A stretch of 32,138 bases of DNA from a virus, in the IMG/VR virus record IMGVR_UViG_3300043395_000981, positions 1 through 32,138 of that record; one strand, written 5' to 3'. Positions 5,516 to 32,138 of the stretch are shown here, one piece after another. The position numbers and the translations under genes were made by a program. The first letter of the stretch is position 1. Every line of letters begins with the position of its first letter. The notes below the pieces were generated by a model. The model did not search any database, was not told the DNA's origin, and saw nothing but the letters and a program-made list of their open reading frames with translations.

Positions 5516-6043
5516 TTATTTGTTTGTTTGATTTGTGAGCCTGTTGTAAACCTTCGCAAGTCGGCCATCTCCTTGCTGTTCAAATATAGTGCATAAGTGC
5601 CGAACACATGGAACGATCAAAGCATCTTCAACCGAAATGAGTTCGTCAATCTTCTTAACCGCGTGCAAGATAGTGGAATGGTTGTAACTCATCCCGTTTA
5701 CCGATGTCATTTGACCCAGCGTGTACCTTGTCGTGTTTCGAAGTGCCCAAAACATAATCATGCGGGCCGTTGCGTAGTTTCGAATGCGTCTTTTCTTCAT
5801 CCACGTTCGACTGCTCCCGAAGTACTGCTCAACCACACTAATGATTAGTGTCAACTTATTGTGGTCAGCTATTCCTGCAGGAATTTCGCCTCTCTTATGG
5901 AATAGGTGCGCGTCATTCATTGAAACCGCGATGTATTTCTTGCCATCGAAATAAAGCATCATGGCCCGTGGTAACTGCGATTCGTACACAGCCACCTCCC
6001 CGACAGCTATCAAAGTGTTGGGGTCGATGTCCTCGATCTTCAT
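5516..6043 (-). CDS. DnaA domain IV-like DNA-binding protein
   Basis: 175 aa. Residues about 83-130 match the C-terminal DNA-binding domain of DnaA: a basic helix KKRRIRNYATARMIMFWALR, then TLGQM and the signature SYNHSTILHAVKKI, equivalent to the DnaA box-binding DHSTV segment. There is no AAA+ ATPase part. The first 75 residues form an unrelated domain (VYESQLPRAMMLYFDGKKYI). Such a protein could bind DnaA boxes in the phage or host origin to recruit or block host replication. Its start at 6043 overlaps the stop of the upstream small gene (ATGA at 6040-6043). Confidence 0.8.
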   Translation of the reverse strand: MKIEDIDPNTLIAVGEVAVYESQLPRAMMLYFDGKKYIAVSMNDAHLFHKRGEIPAGIADHNKLTLIISVVEQYFGSSRTWMKKRRIRNYATARMIMFWALRNTTRYTLGQMTSVNGMSYNHSTILHAVKKIDELISVEDALIVPCVRHLCTIFEQQGDGRLAKVYNRLTNQTNK

Positions 6044-9399: not shown

Positions 9400-9436
9400 G
9401 TGAATGATTTTTTTGTGTTACATTTGTTGAACGGCA

Positions 9437-9467
9437 CAAATATAGAACAAGTTTCTTTTATAGCAAG
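9437..9467 (-). promoter_or_regulatory. Strong early promoter (minus strand)
   Basis: On the minus strand CTTG (9467-9464), a one-base variant of the -33 TTTG box, is followed after exactly 19 nt by TATATTTG (9444-9437), a perfect TAnnTTTG -7 box. The region is AT-rich with T runs. Transcription would start about 30 nt before the ATG at 9399 and read the whole early block. Confidence 0.75.
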
Positions 9468-9495
9468 TTTTTTTTATACTTTTTTCAAAGATATT

Positions 9496-9978
9496 TTGGA
9501 AAGTTTTGAGAATCAAATAAATATCCATTACAAAAAGTGGCTGAAATTTGCCAAAAAATTATCGAATGAGGATGAGGCGGTGGATATTTTGAACGATTTA
9601 TTGGAGAAACTTTTAACCCGTTACAGGGATAAGGTGGAAGAACTATCCAAAAGGGGCGAAGTTGACAAGTACGTGTGCAGGGGGATAATGAACAAGGCAC
9701 TCGACAGGCGGAGAACCTACCGAATGGTTGAGTTGAAGATTGACCTAGTTGACCAAGGCAGCGATGCGATGGAAGTGGAGGCAAAGATGCAGCTAATTGA
9801 ATCGGGTCTGCGGTCGCTGACGTACGGGGATCGCGCTTTGATACGTTACGAACTGGCGAATGTGGGAACGATTAAGCAGCTAGCAGTTGAGATAGGCGAG
9901 GACCCCGAATACCTCCGCCAAAAATTGCACCGAGCAAAACAAAGATTGAAGGAAAATATATGGCATTTAGAGCAGTAG
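9496..9978 (+). CDS. Sigma-70-like / ECF-type regulator, start uncertain
   Basis: About 160 aa from the TTG at 9496. The N-terminal part (HYKKWLKFAKKLSNEDEAVD ILNDLLEKLL) resembles sigma region 2. RGIMNKALDRRRTYR follows, then a C-terminal helix-turn-helix like sigma region 4 (LTYGDRALIRYELANVGTIK, then QLAVEIGEDPEYLRQKLHRA). An open frame extends back to a GTG at 9400, but that stretch contains the divergent early promoter and is unlikely to be coding. No ATG exists in the usable part, so TTG is my best guess. As the first gene of the rightward block it may switch on late transcription. Confidence 0.65.
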   Translation: MESFENQINIHYKKWLKFAKKLSNEDEAVDILNDLLEKLLTRYRDKVEELSKRGEVDKYVCRGIMNKALDRRRTYRMVELKIDLVDQGSDAMEVEAKMQLIESGLRSLTYGDRALIRYELANVGTIKQLAVEIGEDPEYLRQKLHRAKQRLKENIWHLEQ

Positions 9979-10445
9979 TACCGGCAGACGTTCAAGCGCA
10001 ACGGATGAAGATTTGCGAGGCGTGCAAGTGGTTCAAGGATTCGACCAAATCCTGCGGCACACTCATCACCCAAGCGTTTAAGGACAGGGTGGGCGAAGTT
10101 GACGCGGTGGAGGTCAAGGGTAACGTAGTTCGCCACTACCGAAAACCGATCAAACTTTGTGGCTGTTACATGCCAGCAAAGACCGAACTCGCTTGGGCAT
10201 CGTGTCCTGCGGAGAAATGGGGCACGTTTGGGCTTGGTCACAAGGAACTGGCTCGGTTAAAAACAATAGCCTTGGAACTCAAACGCACGGGCAGACTTGA
10301 ACTCGGATCGGAGAAAGCGATCATGTTCAAACTTTACCTTTCTAAGTTGACAGGCAAGAACGTAGAACTCACGAATTGTCCTAGTTGCATCAATGATCTT
10401 TTGGAGTTATCTTTGTCAGCAACAGCAGAAATCGAAATCGAATAA
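9960..10445 (+). CDS. Cys-rich zinc-binding protein, 161 aa
   Basis: Cys19 and Cys22 (MKICEACKWF), Cys32, Cys67 and Cys69 (LCGCYMP) and Cys82 (SCPAEKW) make one or two zinc sites in the first half. This C..C...CGCY...CP..KW pattern recurs, in my memory, in small proteins of Bacteroidetes phages, without known function. The second half is helical with one more Cys pair (NCPSC). It overlaps the sigma-like gene by 19 bp. A role in gene control or virion assembly cannot be decided. Confidence 0.65.
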   Translation: MAFRAVVPADVQAQRMKICEACKWFKDSTKSCGTLITQAFKDRVGEVDAVEVKGNVVRHYRKPIKLCGCYMPAKTELAWASCPAEKWGTFGLGHKELARLKTIALELKRTGRLELGSEKAIMFKLYLSKLTGKNVELTNCPSCINDLLELSLSATAEIEIE

Positions 10446-10460
10446 ACAAATAATAAACCA

Positions 10461-10736
10461 ATGAAGAAACCACACATCAAAATCGTTGATTCCATCGCCC
10501 GACCATTCAGAGGTCAGGGATCAGCACGCCGCGTAAAGGGTTACCGCGTTCAACTCGTGGCGGCCAACGGCGAAATCCTGCAAATATCGGAGCAACTCGA
10601 ATCGGTGGCATCCGTTAAAAAACATATCCTTGCGATTGGAAGGGTATTCGCCATCGCAGCAGCGTGGGAACTCTGGTCAGTTGTGAAGGTAGTTGACGAA
10701 ACCAAGGATAAAGTTTGGAAAAACCCTTTACCATGA
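10461..10736 (+). CDS. Small protein with YegP/DUF1508-like motif, 91 aa
   Basis: The segment KGYRVQLVAANGEILQISEQ LESVASVKKHILAI resembles one copy of the YegP (DUF1508) beta-beta-beta-alpha unit: a hydrophobic strand, NGE turn, SE.. strand, then a helix. The N-terminus is basic. The last 30 residues differ from that family (WELWSVVKVVDETKD). The function of YegP-like proteins is not settled. The gene follows the zinc protein by 15 bp, and its stop overlaps the next start (ATGA at 10733-10736). Confidence 0.6.
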   Translation: MKKPHIKIVDSIARPFRGQGSARRVKGYRVQLVAANGEILQISEQLESVASVKKHILAIGRVFAIAAAWELWSVVKVVDETKDKVWKNPLP

Positions 10737-11014
10737 CCTACATCCACACACCCACGGGCCAAATAGTCGAGGCTGTTCAATGGAAAAAGACGAACTTCAA
10801 AGATGTTTGGGCCTTGACAAACGGGCAGGTGCAGCAGTCAAAGACTGGCGTCATGGGCATGCGCGTGAAGGGAGGCTATTGGCCGATTGAGTTTGGCGAA
10901 TGGGTGATCAAAACCAAGGATGGAGACTTGCACGTTCATTCCGATCGCTATTTCGATGGGCATTATCGGGTCTTGAAATGCGATTCCGTCACCGATGAAA
11001 CACCAATAAAATAA
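10733..11014 (+). CDS. Small conserved-type phage protein, 93 aa
   Basis: From the ATG at 10733 (MTYIHTPTGQIVEAVQWK) the protein ends with FGEWVIKTKDGDLHVHSDRY FDGHYRVL. This resembles a widespread short phage protein whose C-terminus reads GDWVV...GE.Y.c.pd.F...Y. The function of that group is unknown. An ATG at 10715 also fits the frame, but the overlapping ATGA junction with the upstream stop favours 10733. It is the last gene before the palindromic operator at 11029. Confidence 0.6.
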   Translation: MTYIHTPTGQIVEAVQWKKTNFKDVWALTNGQVQQSKTGVMGMRVKGGYWPIEFGEWVIKTKDGDLHVHSDRYFDGHYRVLKCDSVTDETPIK

Positions 11015-11028
11015 GGGAAAGTTACTTA

Positions 11029-11045
11029 TTTAGAATCATTCTAAA
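11029..11045. promoter_or_regulatory. Perfect 17-bp palindrome, operator-like
   Basis: TTTAGAAT-C-ATTCTAAA is a perfect inverted repeat (8-1-8) in the 45-bp gap before the small terminase gene. It fits the PerR-type pattern TTAnAATnATTnTAA (the Bacillus consensus is TTATAATnATTATAA), and Fur-family sites share this layout. A host Fur or PerR protein, or a phage regulator, could bind here and control the late operon. No clear TAnnTTTG box lies beside it. Confidence 0.55.
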
Positions 11046-11059
11046 CAACGAAAATCAAC

Positions 11060-11437
11060 ATGGATACCTTAAAAGCAAAAATGGTACAGGCACTTGCCCA
11101 AACATACGGCAGGGTAACAGATGCCGCGAAGATCGTGGACATTGACAGGACCACTCACTACCGATGGTTAAAGGAAGATGAAGAATATAGGACCGCTGTG
11201 GAGAGCGTTGGTGAAGTTGCCTTGGATTTTGTCGAGGGAAAATTGTTCGAGTTGATTGAAGGGGCGGAACGGGAGGTAATGACCGAAGCAGGACCGATCA
11301 TGTTGAAGGAGACACCTAACCCAACCGCCTGTATCTTCTACTTAAAGACCAAGGGGAAAAAACGCGGCTACGTTGAACGTCAAGAGATCACAGGCGCCGA
11401 TGGAGGTGCAGTAACAATAGTACTCAGCGATGTTTAG
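11060..11437 (+). CDS. terS: Terminase small subunit
   Basis: 125 aa. The N-terminus has a helix-turn-helix of terminase small subunits (YGRVTDAAKIVDIDRTTHYR WLKED). A helical oligomerisation region follows (VALDFVEGKLFELIEGAERE), then NPTACIFYLKTKGKKRGYVE, the motif typical of phBC6A51-like small terminases. It recognises phage DNA for packaging and loads the large subunit. Its partner gene lies about 11.5 kb away on the opposite strand, instead of next to it. It overlaps the tail chaperone gene by 8 bp. Confidence 0.82.
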   Translation: MDTLKAKMVQALAQTYGRVTDAAKIVDIDRTTHYRWLKEDEEYRTAVESVGEVALDFVEGKLFELIEGAEREVMTEAGPIMLKETPNPTACIFYLKTKGKKRGYVERQEITGADGGAVTIVLSDV

Positions 11438-20711: not shown

Positions 20712-21701
20712 ATGGAAAAGAAAAAGAAAATAATCTTCGACCTCAACGAACTAGAGGATATCGGAGTGTACGCAATTTCGATCGTAAAGAACCCAGCCAT
20801 CGAAGCGGGTTTTGTTGCGTTGTCAGCGCACGATGTGAAATTGAAAATTGACGAAGAACGCCGAATGATTTACGGCCCCGTTCTCATCCCCAACAAAGAG
20901 ATTTTGCGCATTGACGAAAAGGGGGAGGAATATTTCATCGAGTTCCCCGAACCGACTATTCGTAAGGCACAGGAGCAGTTCTTCAAACAAATGCGCCAAC
21001 AGCAACACACTTATGAACATCAGTTCAGCATCGATGGGTTGACAGTTGTCGAATCGTGGATCAAAGAAGGTCCAAGCGACAAATCGGTGCAACTTGGGAT
21101 GGACTACCCCGAAGGCACGTGGTTTGTAGGTTCAAAGGTTGACAATGCCGACGCATGGGAGAGGGTCAAAAAAGGCGAAGTAACAGGGTTCAGCATCGAG
21201 GGAAAGTTCTCCGAAAAAGATGCGGAGTTGTCACGGGAACAAAAGGCCGTGCTTGCCGTTGATTTGTTACTAAAGCGGTTTGATGCCATCCTGAGCAAGC
21301 AGGTGGAAAAGTATTGGGGTGTTGAAAAATCAATCGGTTGGATTAAAGAAAACTTATCCATTGACGTAACGGGCGAAAAAGGCAAGTTGGAAATTCCAAT
21401 GACCAACGAAACGTTTTTGCAAATCGAAAAAAACGCACCCGAAAGCGTGTTGTTTGACCTTGGATTGCGTGTGTGGGCAACGATGAATGAGATAATCGAA
21501 GAAGAAAACCAATACGGGGATAAGAGGGAACTACTTGAAAAAGACAAAAAGATATGGTTACTTCCGCCATACATGCTTAAGTTTGTTCCGAAAGGCCACG
21601 AATTGTACGGGTTGTTCGGGGAAAAAACAACAGCACGAGAAGGCATGGATGATGACACCCGTTTCGGTGTAACGGCCTACGGAATTTTGAAAGACTTTTG
21701 A
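20712..21701 (+). CDS. XkdF-type prohead protease with C-terminal extension
   Basis: 329 aa. Residues about 15-170 match the XkdF group of putative phage serine proteases: YAISIVKNPAIEAGFVALS, MIYGPVLIPNKEILR, TYEHQFSIDGLTVVESWIKE, GTWFVGSKVDNADAWERVKK, GEVTGFSIEGKF. The His and Ser in HQF and GFSIEG are candidate catalytic residues. The last 120 residues (from about 210) form an extra domain of unknown role. It should process the scaffold and capsid, whose genes lie about 2.6 kb downstream beyond the reversed terL. Confidence 0.8.
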   Translation: MEKKKKIIFDLNELEDIGVYAISIVKNPAIEAGFVALSAHDVKLKIDEERRMIYGPVLIPNKEILRIDEKGEEYFIEFPEPTIRKAQEQFFKQMRQQQHTYEHQFSIDGLTVVESWIKEGPSDKSVQLGMDYPEGTWFVGSKVDNADAWERVKKGEVTGFSIEGKFSEKDAELSREQKAVLAVDLLLKRFDAILSKQVEKYWGVEKSIGWIKENLSIDVTGEKGKLEIPMTNETFLQIEKNAPESVLFDLGLRVWATMNEIIEEENQYGDKRELLEKDKKIWLLPPYMLKFVPKGHELYGLFGEKTTAREGMDDDTRFGVTAYGILKDF

Positions 21702-21725
21702 GCAAATCATAAACCACAATAAATA

Positions 21726-22838
21726 ATGGCAACCATTGACACCCTTGTCCGCTTAGGACTGCCGCTATCGTTCGATCAACACGATGGCATCTTCGTAGAA
21801 TCAAAACGCATTGACCCAGTGCTCACTGAGTTCTACGAATACCGAACCAACCCCACGACACGACGCCGCGAGAAAACACTTGTTGAACGCACGCTCACTC
21901 CACAAGTGACTATCCCTACGCGGCCTATCAAAATGATGGCGTTGAATTTTTTGTCTGAGCAAATTTCGGCATGGAATTATCAGGTCGTTTCTGAGAATCA
22001 CATTCGAAAAGAAGGCAACACTCGCATATTGACCACAGGACCGCTTGCAGGTCAAGAAGTACGCTTCGATGGTGGTGATATCATTATCGAAAACGGAGTG
22101 ATGCGCCGCGAATACGACAGCCCGTACACCAACGTGGACCGCACAGGTCAACCCGCGCAGGTCGTTACGCTTCGTGTGCGTGAACGCCACCGCTTTGTGA
22201 TGCGTCAAGTCAGCGGAACCAACGTGACCGAAACGCACAAGGATTCGTTTGTCAATACTTCAAAGGTATTCACCAAGGATCAGATCGAAGCAATGGGATT
22301 CTCAGGCCAACTACTTGCCGACTACACTTCACATGAGTTTACGTTGACCCGACCAAACGAAGCCACGCACTTATTGAATGTATCGACCGATTTGGAGCCA
22401 ATGGGAGAGGGCATGTATTGGCCGAATGCCTATTTCAACGGACGCGATGAATCCACTTTTAACTTCCGATCGCTCATTCCGCATTACGCAACGTCAACAC
22501 CGGACTTTGTTTTCAGAATCCGAGCTTACGACACCTCGACAAATGCAGACTATCCTGCACCAAACTATGCGGGCATGGGTAACTTCGGTAAGTGCCTTGA
22601 CATCGCGTTCGAAAATGAGGACGTGAAACCCGTTCGCGTGATATTTGGTGACGCTCAGTGGACCGAAATCCACGACGACGTGGATGAACTGGTAATCATT
22701 TTCAAGTCGGAAACATCGCGCGCAGCCATTGGCATGGCAATCGAGTATAAGCCGCTCGATGGAAAGAAAGTTGAACACGAAATGTACATCAACTGCTTGA
22801 CAGGTGAGCGTACTTTGAATATCTTTGATCTTGGTTAG
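21726..22838 (+). CDS. Probable virion protein of unknown type, 370 aa
   Basis: Not recognised. Soluble, mixed alpha/beta, with long charged strands (ERHRFVMRQVSGTNVTETHK) and no membrane segment or signal. Its size, codon use like its neighbours, and position between protease and capsid genes suggest an abundant structural protein, perhaps a head decoration or second capsid-related protein. It ends 30 bp before a strong terminator. Mass spectrometry of virions would decide its role. Confidence 0.6.
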   Translation: MATIDTLVRLGLPLSFDQHDGIFVESKRIDPVLTEFYEYRTNPTTRRREKTLVERTLTPQVTIPTRPIKMMALNFLSEQISAWNYQVVSENHIRKEGNTRILTTGPLAGQEVRFDGGDIIIENGVMRREYDSPYTNVDRTGQPAQVVTLRVRERHRFVMRQVSGTNVTETHKDSFVNTSKVFTKDQIEAMGFSGQLLADYTSHEFTLTRPNEATHLLNVSTDLEPMGEGMYWPNAYFNGRDESTFNFRSLIPHYATSTPDFVFRIRAYDTSTNADYPAPNYAGMGNFGKCLDIAFENEDVKPVRVIFGDAQWTEIHDDVDELVIIFKSETSRAAIGMAIEYKPLDGKKVEHEMYINCLTGERTLNIFDLG

Positions 22839-22868
22839 TAAGGTTTAGTGATATACACGGTAGTTAAA

Positions 22869-22903
22869 AAAAGCCCCCAGCCAAACGTGGTTGGGGGCTT
22901 TTC
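22869..22903. terminator. Bidirectional intrinsic terminator
   Basis: A GC-rich stem AAGCCCCCAGCCA / TGGTTGGGGGCTT (22871-22883 and 22888-22900, one G-T pair) with a 4-nt loop is flanked by A and T runs on both sides. It separates the converging 370-aa gene and terL and can stop both transcripts. Confidence 0.9.
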
Positions 22904-22905
22904 AT

Positions 22906-24228
22906 TTACACATACCAATACTTCCCCGTGGACTTATTGACTTCAAAAAACATTCGCATCATAACCGCATCAGCGTAGTCAGGAGAGCGATTTAACTTCG
23001 ATTTGATTTCATCCTTTGAACTGACAGCGCGTTTTTTATCCTCCTTCGTCCTATCCCTTACTAAGTCGAGTTCCTTTATCAGTTCGTCACGCTTCGAGTT
23101 GTCGTGAATGTACACTTTGTTGTCACGGACCATGGACGCCAGTTTGAAATAACACTCCGCTTTGAGGTTAGAATAATGCATCGAATCCTTTGCGCTTGAC
23201 CCGTTGTTAAACTCCTTGCATCGAAGTATTCCCGCCACGCCAATACCGAGGCCATCAGCATCTACAATAACATTGTTTAACCGAACCCCGTACTCCGTTG
23301 CAAGCACTCGAATGATATCAGCTACCTCATGCGGGTACTTGTGGTTGTATTCAAAAAAACGAATGAGGTGCAACCCCTTCCACAAACAAATCACGGTCCT
23401 ATCGTTGCCCATTGCCGCAGGATCGCACGTTATGTAGCCATCGCCACTTGCCTCAACGTCCTTTGTAAACATCTGAAGCATCGATTGGGTGTCGAATAGT
23501 AGGTCGGGCGAATCATCATAATCCCAGTCACCGAGGGCCAATCGCTTATAGTCACGTTCGCTCAGTGATCTCAAAGTTTCTTCGTACACATCGCGGTTCT
23601 TCATCAGCGTATTGTCGCTCAAAAGAGCAGGAATGAAGATGCGTTCGGGCCTTAATTTACCCGTTCGGTATGGGTCGTAATATTCGTTGTACAAATACCC
23701 CTTCGATGGGTTGCAGGTCATGAGTATTTTGGGCTTTGGCTGCTCTCGATCACCGATTAAGTTCAAGCGAATACGTGATCCAAGAAGTTCGAGACCACGG
23801 CCAGGCACTTGTTGCGCTTCATCCACAAACGCATCGGCACACTCGTAACCACCGAGGTACGAATATTCGGGGTCCGATGGCAAGTACTGAATTTCTTTGA
23901 ACACGATCTGACTTCCGTTTGAAAAAGTGAACACGAAATCCTGCGCGTTGAACGAATAATCAACCCCATCTTTCAACTTCATCAGCCCAACTATTTGCCA
24001 AAACGTGTTGAGCGTGGTTTGTCTAATCGCTTTCAACTCGCTTCGAATGATCAACCCGCGTGTGTTTGGATAAAGTAGCCTTCGAGCGATTTGCCAATAA
24101 CATCCAAGGAATGTTTTTCCGCCACTTGCCGCGCCCCCGTAAAGCACGTGGGTGTAATCGGTTGACCAATGCAAAGCCTTCAATGCTTGTTGCTGTTTTT
24201 CGCTCAGTTCTATTTTGATTTTCTCCAA
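22906..24228 (-). CDS. terL: Terminase large subunit
   Basis: 440 aa. The ATPase domain has Walker A GGAASGGKT (residues 31-39) and Walker B ADAFVDEAQQ (Asp136, Glu137), with the coupling motif near LMTCNPSKG (169-177). The nuclease domain has YITCDPAAMGNDRT (Asp269) and VIVDADGLGIG (Asp323, Asp325), with a late SPDYADAV. It translocates DNA into the prohead and cuts it. It is the only packaging or structural gene on the minus strand and lies far from terS. The frame has no ATG at the right place; TTG at 24228 gives the normal N-terminus. Confidence 0.93.
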   Translation of the reverse strand: MEKIKIELSEKQQQALKALHWSTDYTHVLYGGAASGGKTFLGCYWQIARRLLYPNTRGLIIRSELKAIRQTTLNTFWQIVGLMKLKDGVDYSFNAQDFVFTFSNGSQIVFKEIQYLPSDPEYSYLGGYECADAFVDEAQQVPGRGLELLGSRIRLNLIGDREQPKPKILMTCNPSKGYLYNEYYDPYRTGKLRPERIFIPALLSDNTLMKNRDVYEETLRSLSERDYKRLALGDWDYDDSPDLLFDTQSMLQMFTKDVEASGDGYITCDPAAMGNDRTVICLWKGLHLIRFFEYNHKYPHEVADIIRVLATEYGVRLNNVIVDADGLGIGVAGILRCKEFNNGSSAKDSMHYSNLKAECYFKLASMVRDNKVYIHDNSKRDELIKELDLVRDRTKEDKKRAVSSKDEIKSKLNRSPDYADAVMMRMFFEVNKSTGKYWYV

Positions 24229-24259
24229 ACTTTTATCAATGTTTTTTTATACGATACCA

Positions 24260-24267
24260 CAAATATA
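24260..24267 (-). promoter_or_regulatory. -7 box for terL
   Basis: On the minus strand TATATTTG matches TAnnTTTG exactly, about 32 nt before the TTG start of terL. The -33 region reads TTTT at 19 nt, a weak match. So terL has its own promoter and is probably controlled apart from the other late genes. On the plus strand TAAGTTTT (24275-24282) could serve the scaffold gene, but this is weaker. Confidence 0.5.
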
Positions 24268-24297
24268 CGGCCCCTAAGTTTTAAGAAAAAAGAACAC

Positions 24298-24882
24298 ATG
24301 AGTATCAAAGCAAAAATTCAGGAAGTTCTCGACAAATGGAAAGTCCAGTTGAGCGTCGAAGAACCCAAAAAAGTGGAACTTGCGGCTACGGCAAAAGCGG
24401 CTGACGGCTCTGAGATCGGAACACCCACAGCGTTCGAAGTTGGCGCCGAAGTGTACGTTATGATCGAAGATGCACCACAGGCAGTTCCCGATGGAGAAAT
24501 CGCAATGGAAGATGGCAGCATTGTCGTTGTGAAAGATGGCAAGATCGAATCCATCACACCGAAGGCCGAAGAAATGTCAAGCGATGTTCTTGCAGCGTTT
24601 GAAAAGTTGGCCGAGCGTGTTAGCGTTTTGGAAGGAGCCAACGCAGCGCAAGCCACAGAGCTTTCAACGGCCAATGAAAAGATCACCGAGTTGACAGCCA
24701 AACTTTCAGCAGCCGAAAAGAAAGCGGTAGATGCTGAAAAGAAAGTGGTGGAACTTGGAAAGCAAGCGGCCACTGCATCCGTAAAGGATAAGGCTGCCGT
24801 GGAACTGAAAAAGGAAAAAGAAAAGCAACCAAAAGATTTTTCACGCATGACCTACGTGGAGCGTGTGTTGAACCAAAACTAA
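24298..24882 (+). CDS. Scaffold / capsid assembly protein
   Basis: 194 aa from the ATG at 24298 (MSIKAKIQEVLDKWKVQLSV). A small beta domain (VGAEVYVMIEDAPQ, GEIAMEDGSIVVVKDGKIES) is followed by a long Ala/Lys/Glu coiled coil (FEKLAERVSVLEGANAAQAT to KVVELGKQAA) and a basic C-terminus ending YVERVLNQN. This composition and the position just before the major capsid gene are typical of scaffolds, which guide prohead assembly and are then cleaved by the protease. The longer frame from 24169 overlaps terL and is rejected. Confidence 0.75.
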   Translation: MSIKAKIQEVLDKWKVQLSVEEPKKVELAATAKAADGSEIGTPTAFEVGAEVYVMIEDAPQAVPDGEIAMEDGSIVVVKDGKIESITPKAEEMSSDVLAAFEKLAERVSVLEGANAAQATELSTANEKITELTAKLSAAEKKAVDAEKKVVELGKQAATASVKDKAAVELKKEKEKQPKDFSRMTYVERVLNQN

Positions 24883-31973: not shown

Positions 31974-32019
31974 TTGTAATTCTATTTCGGCTACTTCGGC
32001 AATGCTTTACCGTTATGCG
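31885..32019. repeat. attC-like element, 135 bp, across the contig join
   Basis: The left arm (31885-31915: GGCAACTAAC then TTTGGCAAAATAGCCG) pairs with the right arm (31988-32019: CGGCTACTTCGGCAATGC then CCGTTATGCG). Twelve of 15 inner positions are complementary and the CTAAC/GTTA cores are at the ends. The loop is about 72 nt. Length matches the elements at 500 and 876. The contig join (base 32012 = base 1) falls in its right core. Confidence 0.6.
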
Positions 32020-32138
32020 TAATAAGCTATTCAATAGTTTTTCCACAAGAAATACAAGAAACTCGTGTTGAGCTTCCCCATTTATATGTGTCTTCACGAT
32101 ATTCGTGTCCACCATTTTCTTCGCACCACTTGTATTTC
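32012..32138. repeat. 127-bp terminal direct repeat, right copy
   Basis: Identical to bases 1-127; see the left copy. When closed into a circle this copy should be dropped. Confidence 0.95.
32027..32138 (-). CDS. Partial second copy of the zinc-finger-like cassette gene
   Basis: This is the 3' part of the gene at 16-240, seen again only because the two contig ends overlap. It is not a second gene. Confidence 0.85.
   Translation of the reverse strand, partial: KYKWCEENGGHEYREDTYKWGSSTRVSCISCGKTIE

Follow-up and report, generated by a model that had tools for sequence, protein, structure and literature searches.

Does a phage of the Bacteroidota expose its late genes to an iron or peroxide sensor of its host? 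The question is raised by a 17-bp palindrome just upstream of the gene for the small terminase subunit (terS), which a first-pass annotation had described as a Fur/PerR-type site standing alone in front of terS. The stretch of DNA that we analysed, hereafter the window, comprises the 32,138 bases of an IMG/VR virus record. Its two ends (1-127 and 32012-32138) are identical over 127 bases, so that it is probably a complete genome from a circular assembly. The portal protein matches Nonlabens and Bacteroides phages (distant relatives), and, among terS relatives whose genome is named, the best come from Pedobacter and a Flavobacteriaceae bacterium; the host is therefore in all likelihood a member of the Bacteroidota. 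A DNA search of the phage collection with the palindrome region returned no match.

The early genes (RecT, exonuclease, methyltransferase) point leftward and are faced by a rightward operon, which begins with a sigma-factor-like gene and runs through terS on into the tail and head genes (Table 1). The sigma-factor-like protein had no Pfam match at 0.01, and its counterpart in a sister phage is 99% identical; the terS product also matches Pfam HTH_28, with a score barely above the cut-off. Further along, the large terminase gene (22906-24228) lies on the minus strand within the otherwise rightward operon. PHROG 24921 is divided over two ORFs, 20712-21701 and 24169-24882, as though an insertion had split a head gene, and the sister phage is colinear across this region (20712-24882). 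A strong hairpin with A and T runs alongside (22869-22902) sits between convergent genes and is likely a two-way terminator.

Table 1. Features of the window around the palindrome and terS.
Feature	Position	Strand	Basis
Sigma-factor-like protein, 192 aa, first in the rightward operon	9400..9978	+	phrog_1740 RNA polymerase sigma factor, E 9.9e-7
Putative Bacteroidota-type promoter TTG-N20-TATCTTTG, nearest upstream of terS	10385..10415	+	Consensus scan
Conserved non-coding element, ~48 bp, core CACCAATAAAATAAGGGAAA at 11001-11020	about 10975..11022	+	Gap-free alignment of phage loci
Perfect palindrome TTTAGAATCATTCTAAA, Bacteroidota Fur-box sequence	11029..11045	.	Exact position, single copy, Fur-box identity
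terS, terminase small subunit, 125 aa, HTH	11060..11437	+	PHROG terminase small subunit families, best E 2.5e-9
Gene after terS, 218 aa	11430..12086	+	phrog_32199, unknown function

The palindrome was found exactly where it had been reported, with 8-bp arms around one centre base, and the PerR pattern that it was said to fit, TTAnAATnATTnTAA, is matched without a mismatch. It lies in the 45-bp gap between the stop codon of ORF 10715-11014 and the terS ATG, and ends 14 nt before that ATG. The description of the site as solitary holds within this gap but needs qualifying, since the core of a conserved element ends only 8 bp upstream of it. A scan of the window at up to 3 mismatches gave no second match to the palindrome (next best, 4 mismatches).

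The simplest explanation is chance, that is, an AT-rich palindrome that spells a Fur box and is functionless in this phage. Palindromes of this size (8+1+8 type, spacer 0-1) are expected about 1.3 times per window and two were seen, the second (ACACTAATGATTAGTGT) at 5835-5851 within ORF 5516-6043, so palindromy by itself was rejected as evidence. It also favours chance that reading by eye can take in many windows and many motifs, a practice bound to produce some perfect fits. Against it stand the expected number of exact copies per window, about 0.002-0.004 for the PerR pattern and about 1.5e-5 for the 17-mer, and the placement of the site in a 45-bp gap ahead of the late operon.

A literature search for the word returned a single paper, on Riemerella anatipestifer, also a member of the Bacteroidota; the Fur box of this species is given there as ATTTAGAATTATTCTAAAT, and purified Fur gel-shifted DNA with such boxes (PMC5609570). 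Within the 17-mer, the palindrome agrees with this consensus at every one of the 16 fixed bases, and beyond it at one of the two outer bases, the consensus being that of R. anatipestifer and perhaps not that of the phage host. The two cases share the 17-bp core and the arrangement as a single palindrome near a start codon; they differ in that the R. anatipestifer boxes stand at iron genes and come with gel shifts, whereas the predicted box in the window stands before packaging and tail genes. As a caution, P. gingivalis Fur is described as not binding the E. coli box.

We counted 16 sites of the exact word TTTAGAATNATTCTAAA, spread over 12 of 198 Bacteroidota genomes, and none of a mirrored control palindrome of the same composition in the same 198. 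The neighbours of these host sites include a TonB siderophore receptor with two boxes, feoAB (feoA/feoB), sufS, a HutX-like heme protein, an ABC binding protein, two heme oxygenases and two hemA/AraC pairs, the second of each of the last two being assigned by sequence likeness only. When all sites are considered, some have neighbours without an obvious iron role. The 10 neighbour proteins that were scanned had been selected by eye for a likely role in iron metabolism or as partners of such genes, and hence give no measure of the share of iron genes. At a further Bacteroidota site, a FUR-family gene (Pfam FUR, E 9.7e-32) starts 12 nt downstream; its best NCBIfam model is a Fur, with a score below the model cut-off. 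At those host loci that we regard as regulated targets, the box either lies at the core promoter or has its end 8-34 nt upstream of the start codon, and the 14 nt in the window fall within that range. These observations support the exact word as a Fur-family operator in Bacteroidota, and the palindrome, judged by its letters, is a good candidate for a Fur-type operator.

The annotation of the site as Fur/PerR-type thus stood as regards the family, through the identity with the Fur box, the 16 sites against none and the iron-gene neighbours, but Fur and PerR were not separated. The window fits the PerR box exactly, and the sequence does not tell the two regulators apart here. The difference lies in the neighbouring host genes, which indicate iron and heme rather than peroxide defence. 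Catalase, peroxidase and Dps were seen in none of the 11 proteins scanned beside host sites, a sample of the neighbours chosen as likely iron genes. Fur fits better than PerR as the reader of the palindrome, although PerR may be the reader.

Conservation among relatives gives a different picture. The sister phage (30,440 bases) aligns with the window in pieces that are 75-93% identical (83-93% for the long ones) and is similar on both flanks of 10970-11430, yet its terS and leader are of different origin, so that this segment appears as a cassette swapped between the two phages. The sister terS leader has no palindrome, and the best match in the whole sister genome has 4 mismatches. Neither did we find a match at up to 3 mismatches within up to 400 bp upstream of any of 86 terS relatives (all 80 viral loci and 6 of the 10 from genomes, shorter upstream stretches being used as they were, such as that of L025 with less than 40 bp), and the palindrome is absent from all 15 relatives that carry the conserved element beside terS. 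The first-pass annotation had proposed conservation among relatives as a check, and had regarded its idea as lost if the site was neither conserved nor bound by host regulators; the first half of this is what was found. The palindrome is lineage-specific at the terS locus, and because the sister is alike around a differing terS, the site came with, or arose in, the terS cassette of this lineage. Absence from every relative examined also counts in favour of a chance origin. No exact copy of the word was present in 20 named phages, mostly of Bacteroidota, and at 3 mismatches the totals were no higher than those of the control in several of the 20. Near matches were seen in Muminvirus (within a gene), Cellulophaga phi10:1 and phage 6H.

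The element upstream of the palindrome is, by comparison, widely shared. It aligned without gaps between the window, L208 and 15 other phage loci, the latter selected as homologous from 31 stretches found. Homologous small genes lie before it, and after it come, in most cases, terS-like genes and the next late gene, with a different gene first downstream at some loci. The upstream genes differ, and their ends join the element in varying reading frames, so that what is kept must be the DNA itself. We regard it as a candidate late promoter or packaging (cos/pac) site. A consensus scan found no Bacteroidota -33/-7 promoter in the 45-bp gap before terS.

With such an element alongside, the palindrome could also be the target of a phage protein, such as TerS or a late regulator, or part of a cos/pac site. 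It adjoins terS, which encodes a helix-turn-helix protein, and together with the element it occupies a position typical of packaging sites, as in lambda-like phages. In two other viral contigs (L152 and L423), moreover, the word lies 89 nt upstream of a terS-like gene. We nevertheless consider this explanation very unlikely, given that none of the element-sharing relatives has the palindrome, that the word precedes quite different genes in other phages and that it also occurs at host iron genes.

The distribution of the word in other viral contigs bears on both chance and function. A scan for the exact word gave at least 120 stretches, and one for the mirrored control gave 58. Among the matches listed, 117 of the 122 sites of the word fall between genes, compared with 13 of 59 for the control (Fisher p 2e-25), where genic and intergenic are called from mechanical ORFs of at least 60 aa. 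The longer form CTTATTTAGAATNATTCTAAA, also present in the window, has at least 120 viral matches and occurs in 2 of 395 Bacteroidota genomes, counts that are not rates because the two collections differ in size. Portal, large and small terminase, tail tube and HNH proteins flank the word (111 of the 345 listed flanking proteins were scanned), which indicates that many of the carriers are real phages. The 18 carrier records that we chose for having the word hold 1-4 sites each at up to 2 mismatches, and the control has 2 in total.

In one group of carriers, the word has the large terminase gene on one side and, on the other, a homologue of the gene that follows terS in the window, a placement like that of the palindrome in the window. 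The product of this window gene is homologous to that of L106:5026-5715 (BLASTP, 28% identity over 176 columns, E 2e-21), where the palindrome precedes the start of the gene by 44 nt. A second group of carriers includes L134 (1653-1669), L088, L097, L102, L109 and L130, some with the flanks AC...GTGGCC. A neighbouring protein in this group matches Pelagibacter phages, outside the Bacteroidota, to which the Fur reading may not extend, and two Pelagibacter-phage relatives that we checked have no exact site.

That the word recurs non-randomly in other phages goes beyond what the first-pass annotation proposed. Such a concentration between genes speaks against chance, and a meaningless palindrome in the window is in our judgement an unlikely explanation. 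Since the word is commoner than chance between the genes of many phages, iron may be a signal that phages read. We found no FUR-family protein in 20 phage records (the window, the sister phage and the 18 carriers) with a search that matched in control genomes. This favours a host regulator over a phage one, and the ligand of the palindrome is likely a host protein.

How such a protein would act can be approached through the spacing between the word and the next promoter, defined as TTG followed by TAnnTTTG (the Bacteroidota -33/-7 type). Full promoters follow the word in 17 of 239 flanks among the matches listed, against 0 of 114 control flanks, and in the viral matches listed their distances from the word fall into clusters at 35-36, 45-48 and 54-57 nt. 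After the offsets had been clustered by flank similarity, which removes kinship roughly, the 15 cluster-level offsets of up to 75 nt (the limit set) gave a Rayleigh R of 0.88 at a period of 10.5 bp, a value that 20,000 uniform draws never reached. Of the 17 strict cluster-level offsets, two (79 and 82) exceed the 75-nt limit and do not share the phase, and a looser set without the demand for a -33 element (43 offsets) gave R 0.36 and p 0.004. In a further group, which lacks the -33 element, the -7 box follows the palindrome by 15 nt, in the same phase. An RNA hairpin or terminator was also considered for the word and rejected, as the 17-mer folds at -2.2 kcal/mol and the word is often upstream of a promoter in other phages.

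Helical phasing is typical of activators. The word could therefore be a true operator whose user on the phage side is an activator, be it Fur acting positively, a paralogue such as PerR or another host regulator, that would contact RNA polymerase from one face of the helix, with the site in the window as a relocated or reduced version. The promoter distances in helical steps, the group with the -7 box at 15 nt and the lack of promoters in control flanks all speak for this, and they make activation more likely than repression in those other phages, which we count against a repressor reading. On the other side, no such promoter lies downstream of the palindrome in the window, the two offsets past the limit and the looser set weaken the phasing, and the clusters may have a common ancestry. 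Host sites lie at the core promoter or the start codon in the manner of a repressor, and it is these that the arrangement in the window (14 nt) resembles, not the phased viral sites. For the window we hold an activator to be rather unlikely, though a competitor to repression.

We prefer, at slightly less than an even chance, to see the palindrome as a host Fur operator that was taken up into the leader of terS and the late operon and would act on late transcription. A metal-loaded dimer of host Fur would bind the palindrome and keep late transcription low, either by blocking initiation or as a roadblock to read-through from upstream; falling iron would then release late transcription. If the conserved element is the late promoter, the palindrome would lie at the transcription start region, the usual place for a repressor. 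If transcription came instead from the promoter-like site at 10385-10415, bound Fur would be a roadblock. We propose repression because of where the palindrome lies, with its end 14 nt from the terS start codon and with 8 bp between it and the core of the possible late promoter upstream. Against this reading count the lack of conservation, the 20 named phages without an exact copy, the lack of a -33/-7 promoter in the gap and the host sites that have no iron gene beside them. What we say of Fur binding in this host, of the sign of its effect, of which element serves as the late promoter and of any gain to the phage is inference, and the case for a function of the palindrome in this phage is thin.

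Two known systems offer partial parallels. The phage-borne stx1 promoter contains a Fur box (PMC5552940), and the likeness is that of a host Fur operator in a phage genome, with expression of a phage-borne gene that follows iron. That box belongs to a cargo gene in an enterobacterial phage, whereas in the window it precedes terS and a structural operon, in another phylum and with another promoter type. In Alphaproteobacteria phages of several lineages, CtrA boxes occur in promoter regions, with binding and reporter data, and a coupling of the lytic cycle to host state termed 'lytic deferment' was proposed (PMC9437464). The likeness is that of sites of a host master regulator placed in phage promoter regions; the CtrA sites form dense clusters, whereas the window has a single candidate site. 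Clustering of the CtrA type within one intergenic region was not seen, with one site in the window and one to four in each of the 18 carriers chosen for the word.

A literature search that covered both the sequence and Fur boxes of late phage promoters found no report of this kind, and we know of no case in which a host iron sensor controls phage packaging and tail genes. With the present case, the reading of host regulators by phages would come to include iron, structural genes and a further phylum. Growth in sea water, in lakes and in animal hosts is limited by iron, which, if such control is real, would directly gate phage production in Bacteroidota. A broader proposal, bold and on balance doubtful, is that perfect host Fur boxes, in helical phase with the host-type promoter, were acquired independently by many unrelated Bacteroidota phages at early, packaging and tail promoters, so that Fur, perhaps also as an activator, times lytic gene expression to cellular iron. 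Fur also sets the level of TonB receptors, through which phages may enter. Phages that read Fur would thereby sense whether neighbouring cells can be infected, in parallel to CtrA-dependent lytic deferment.
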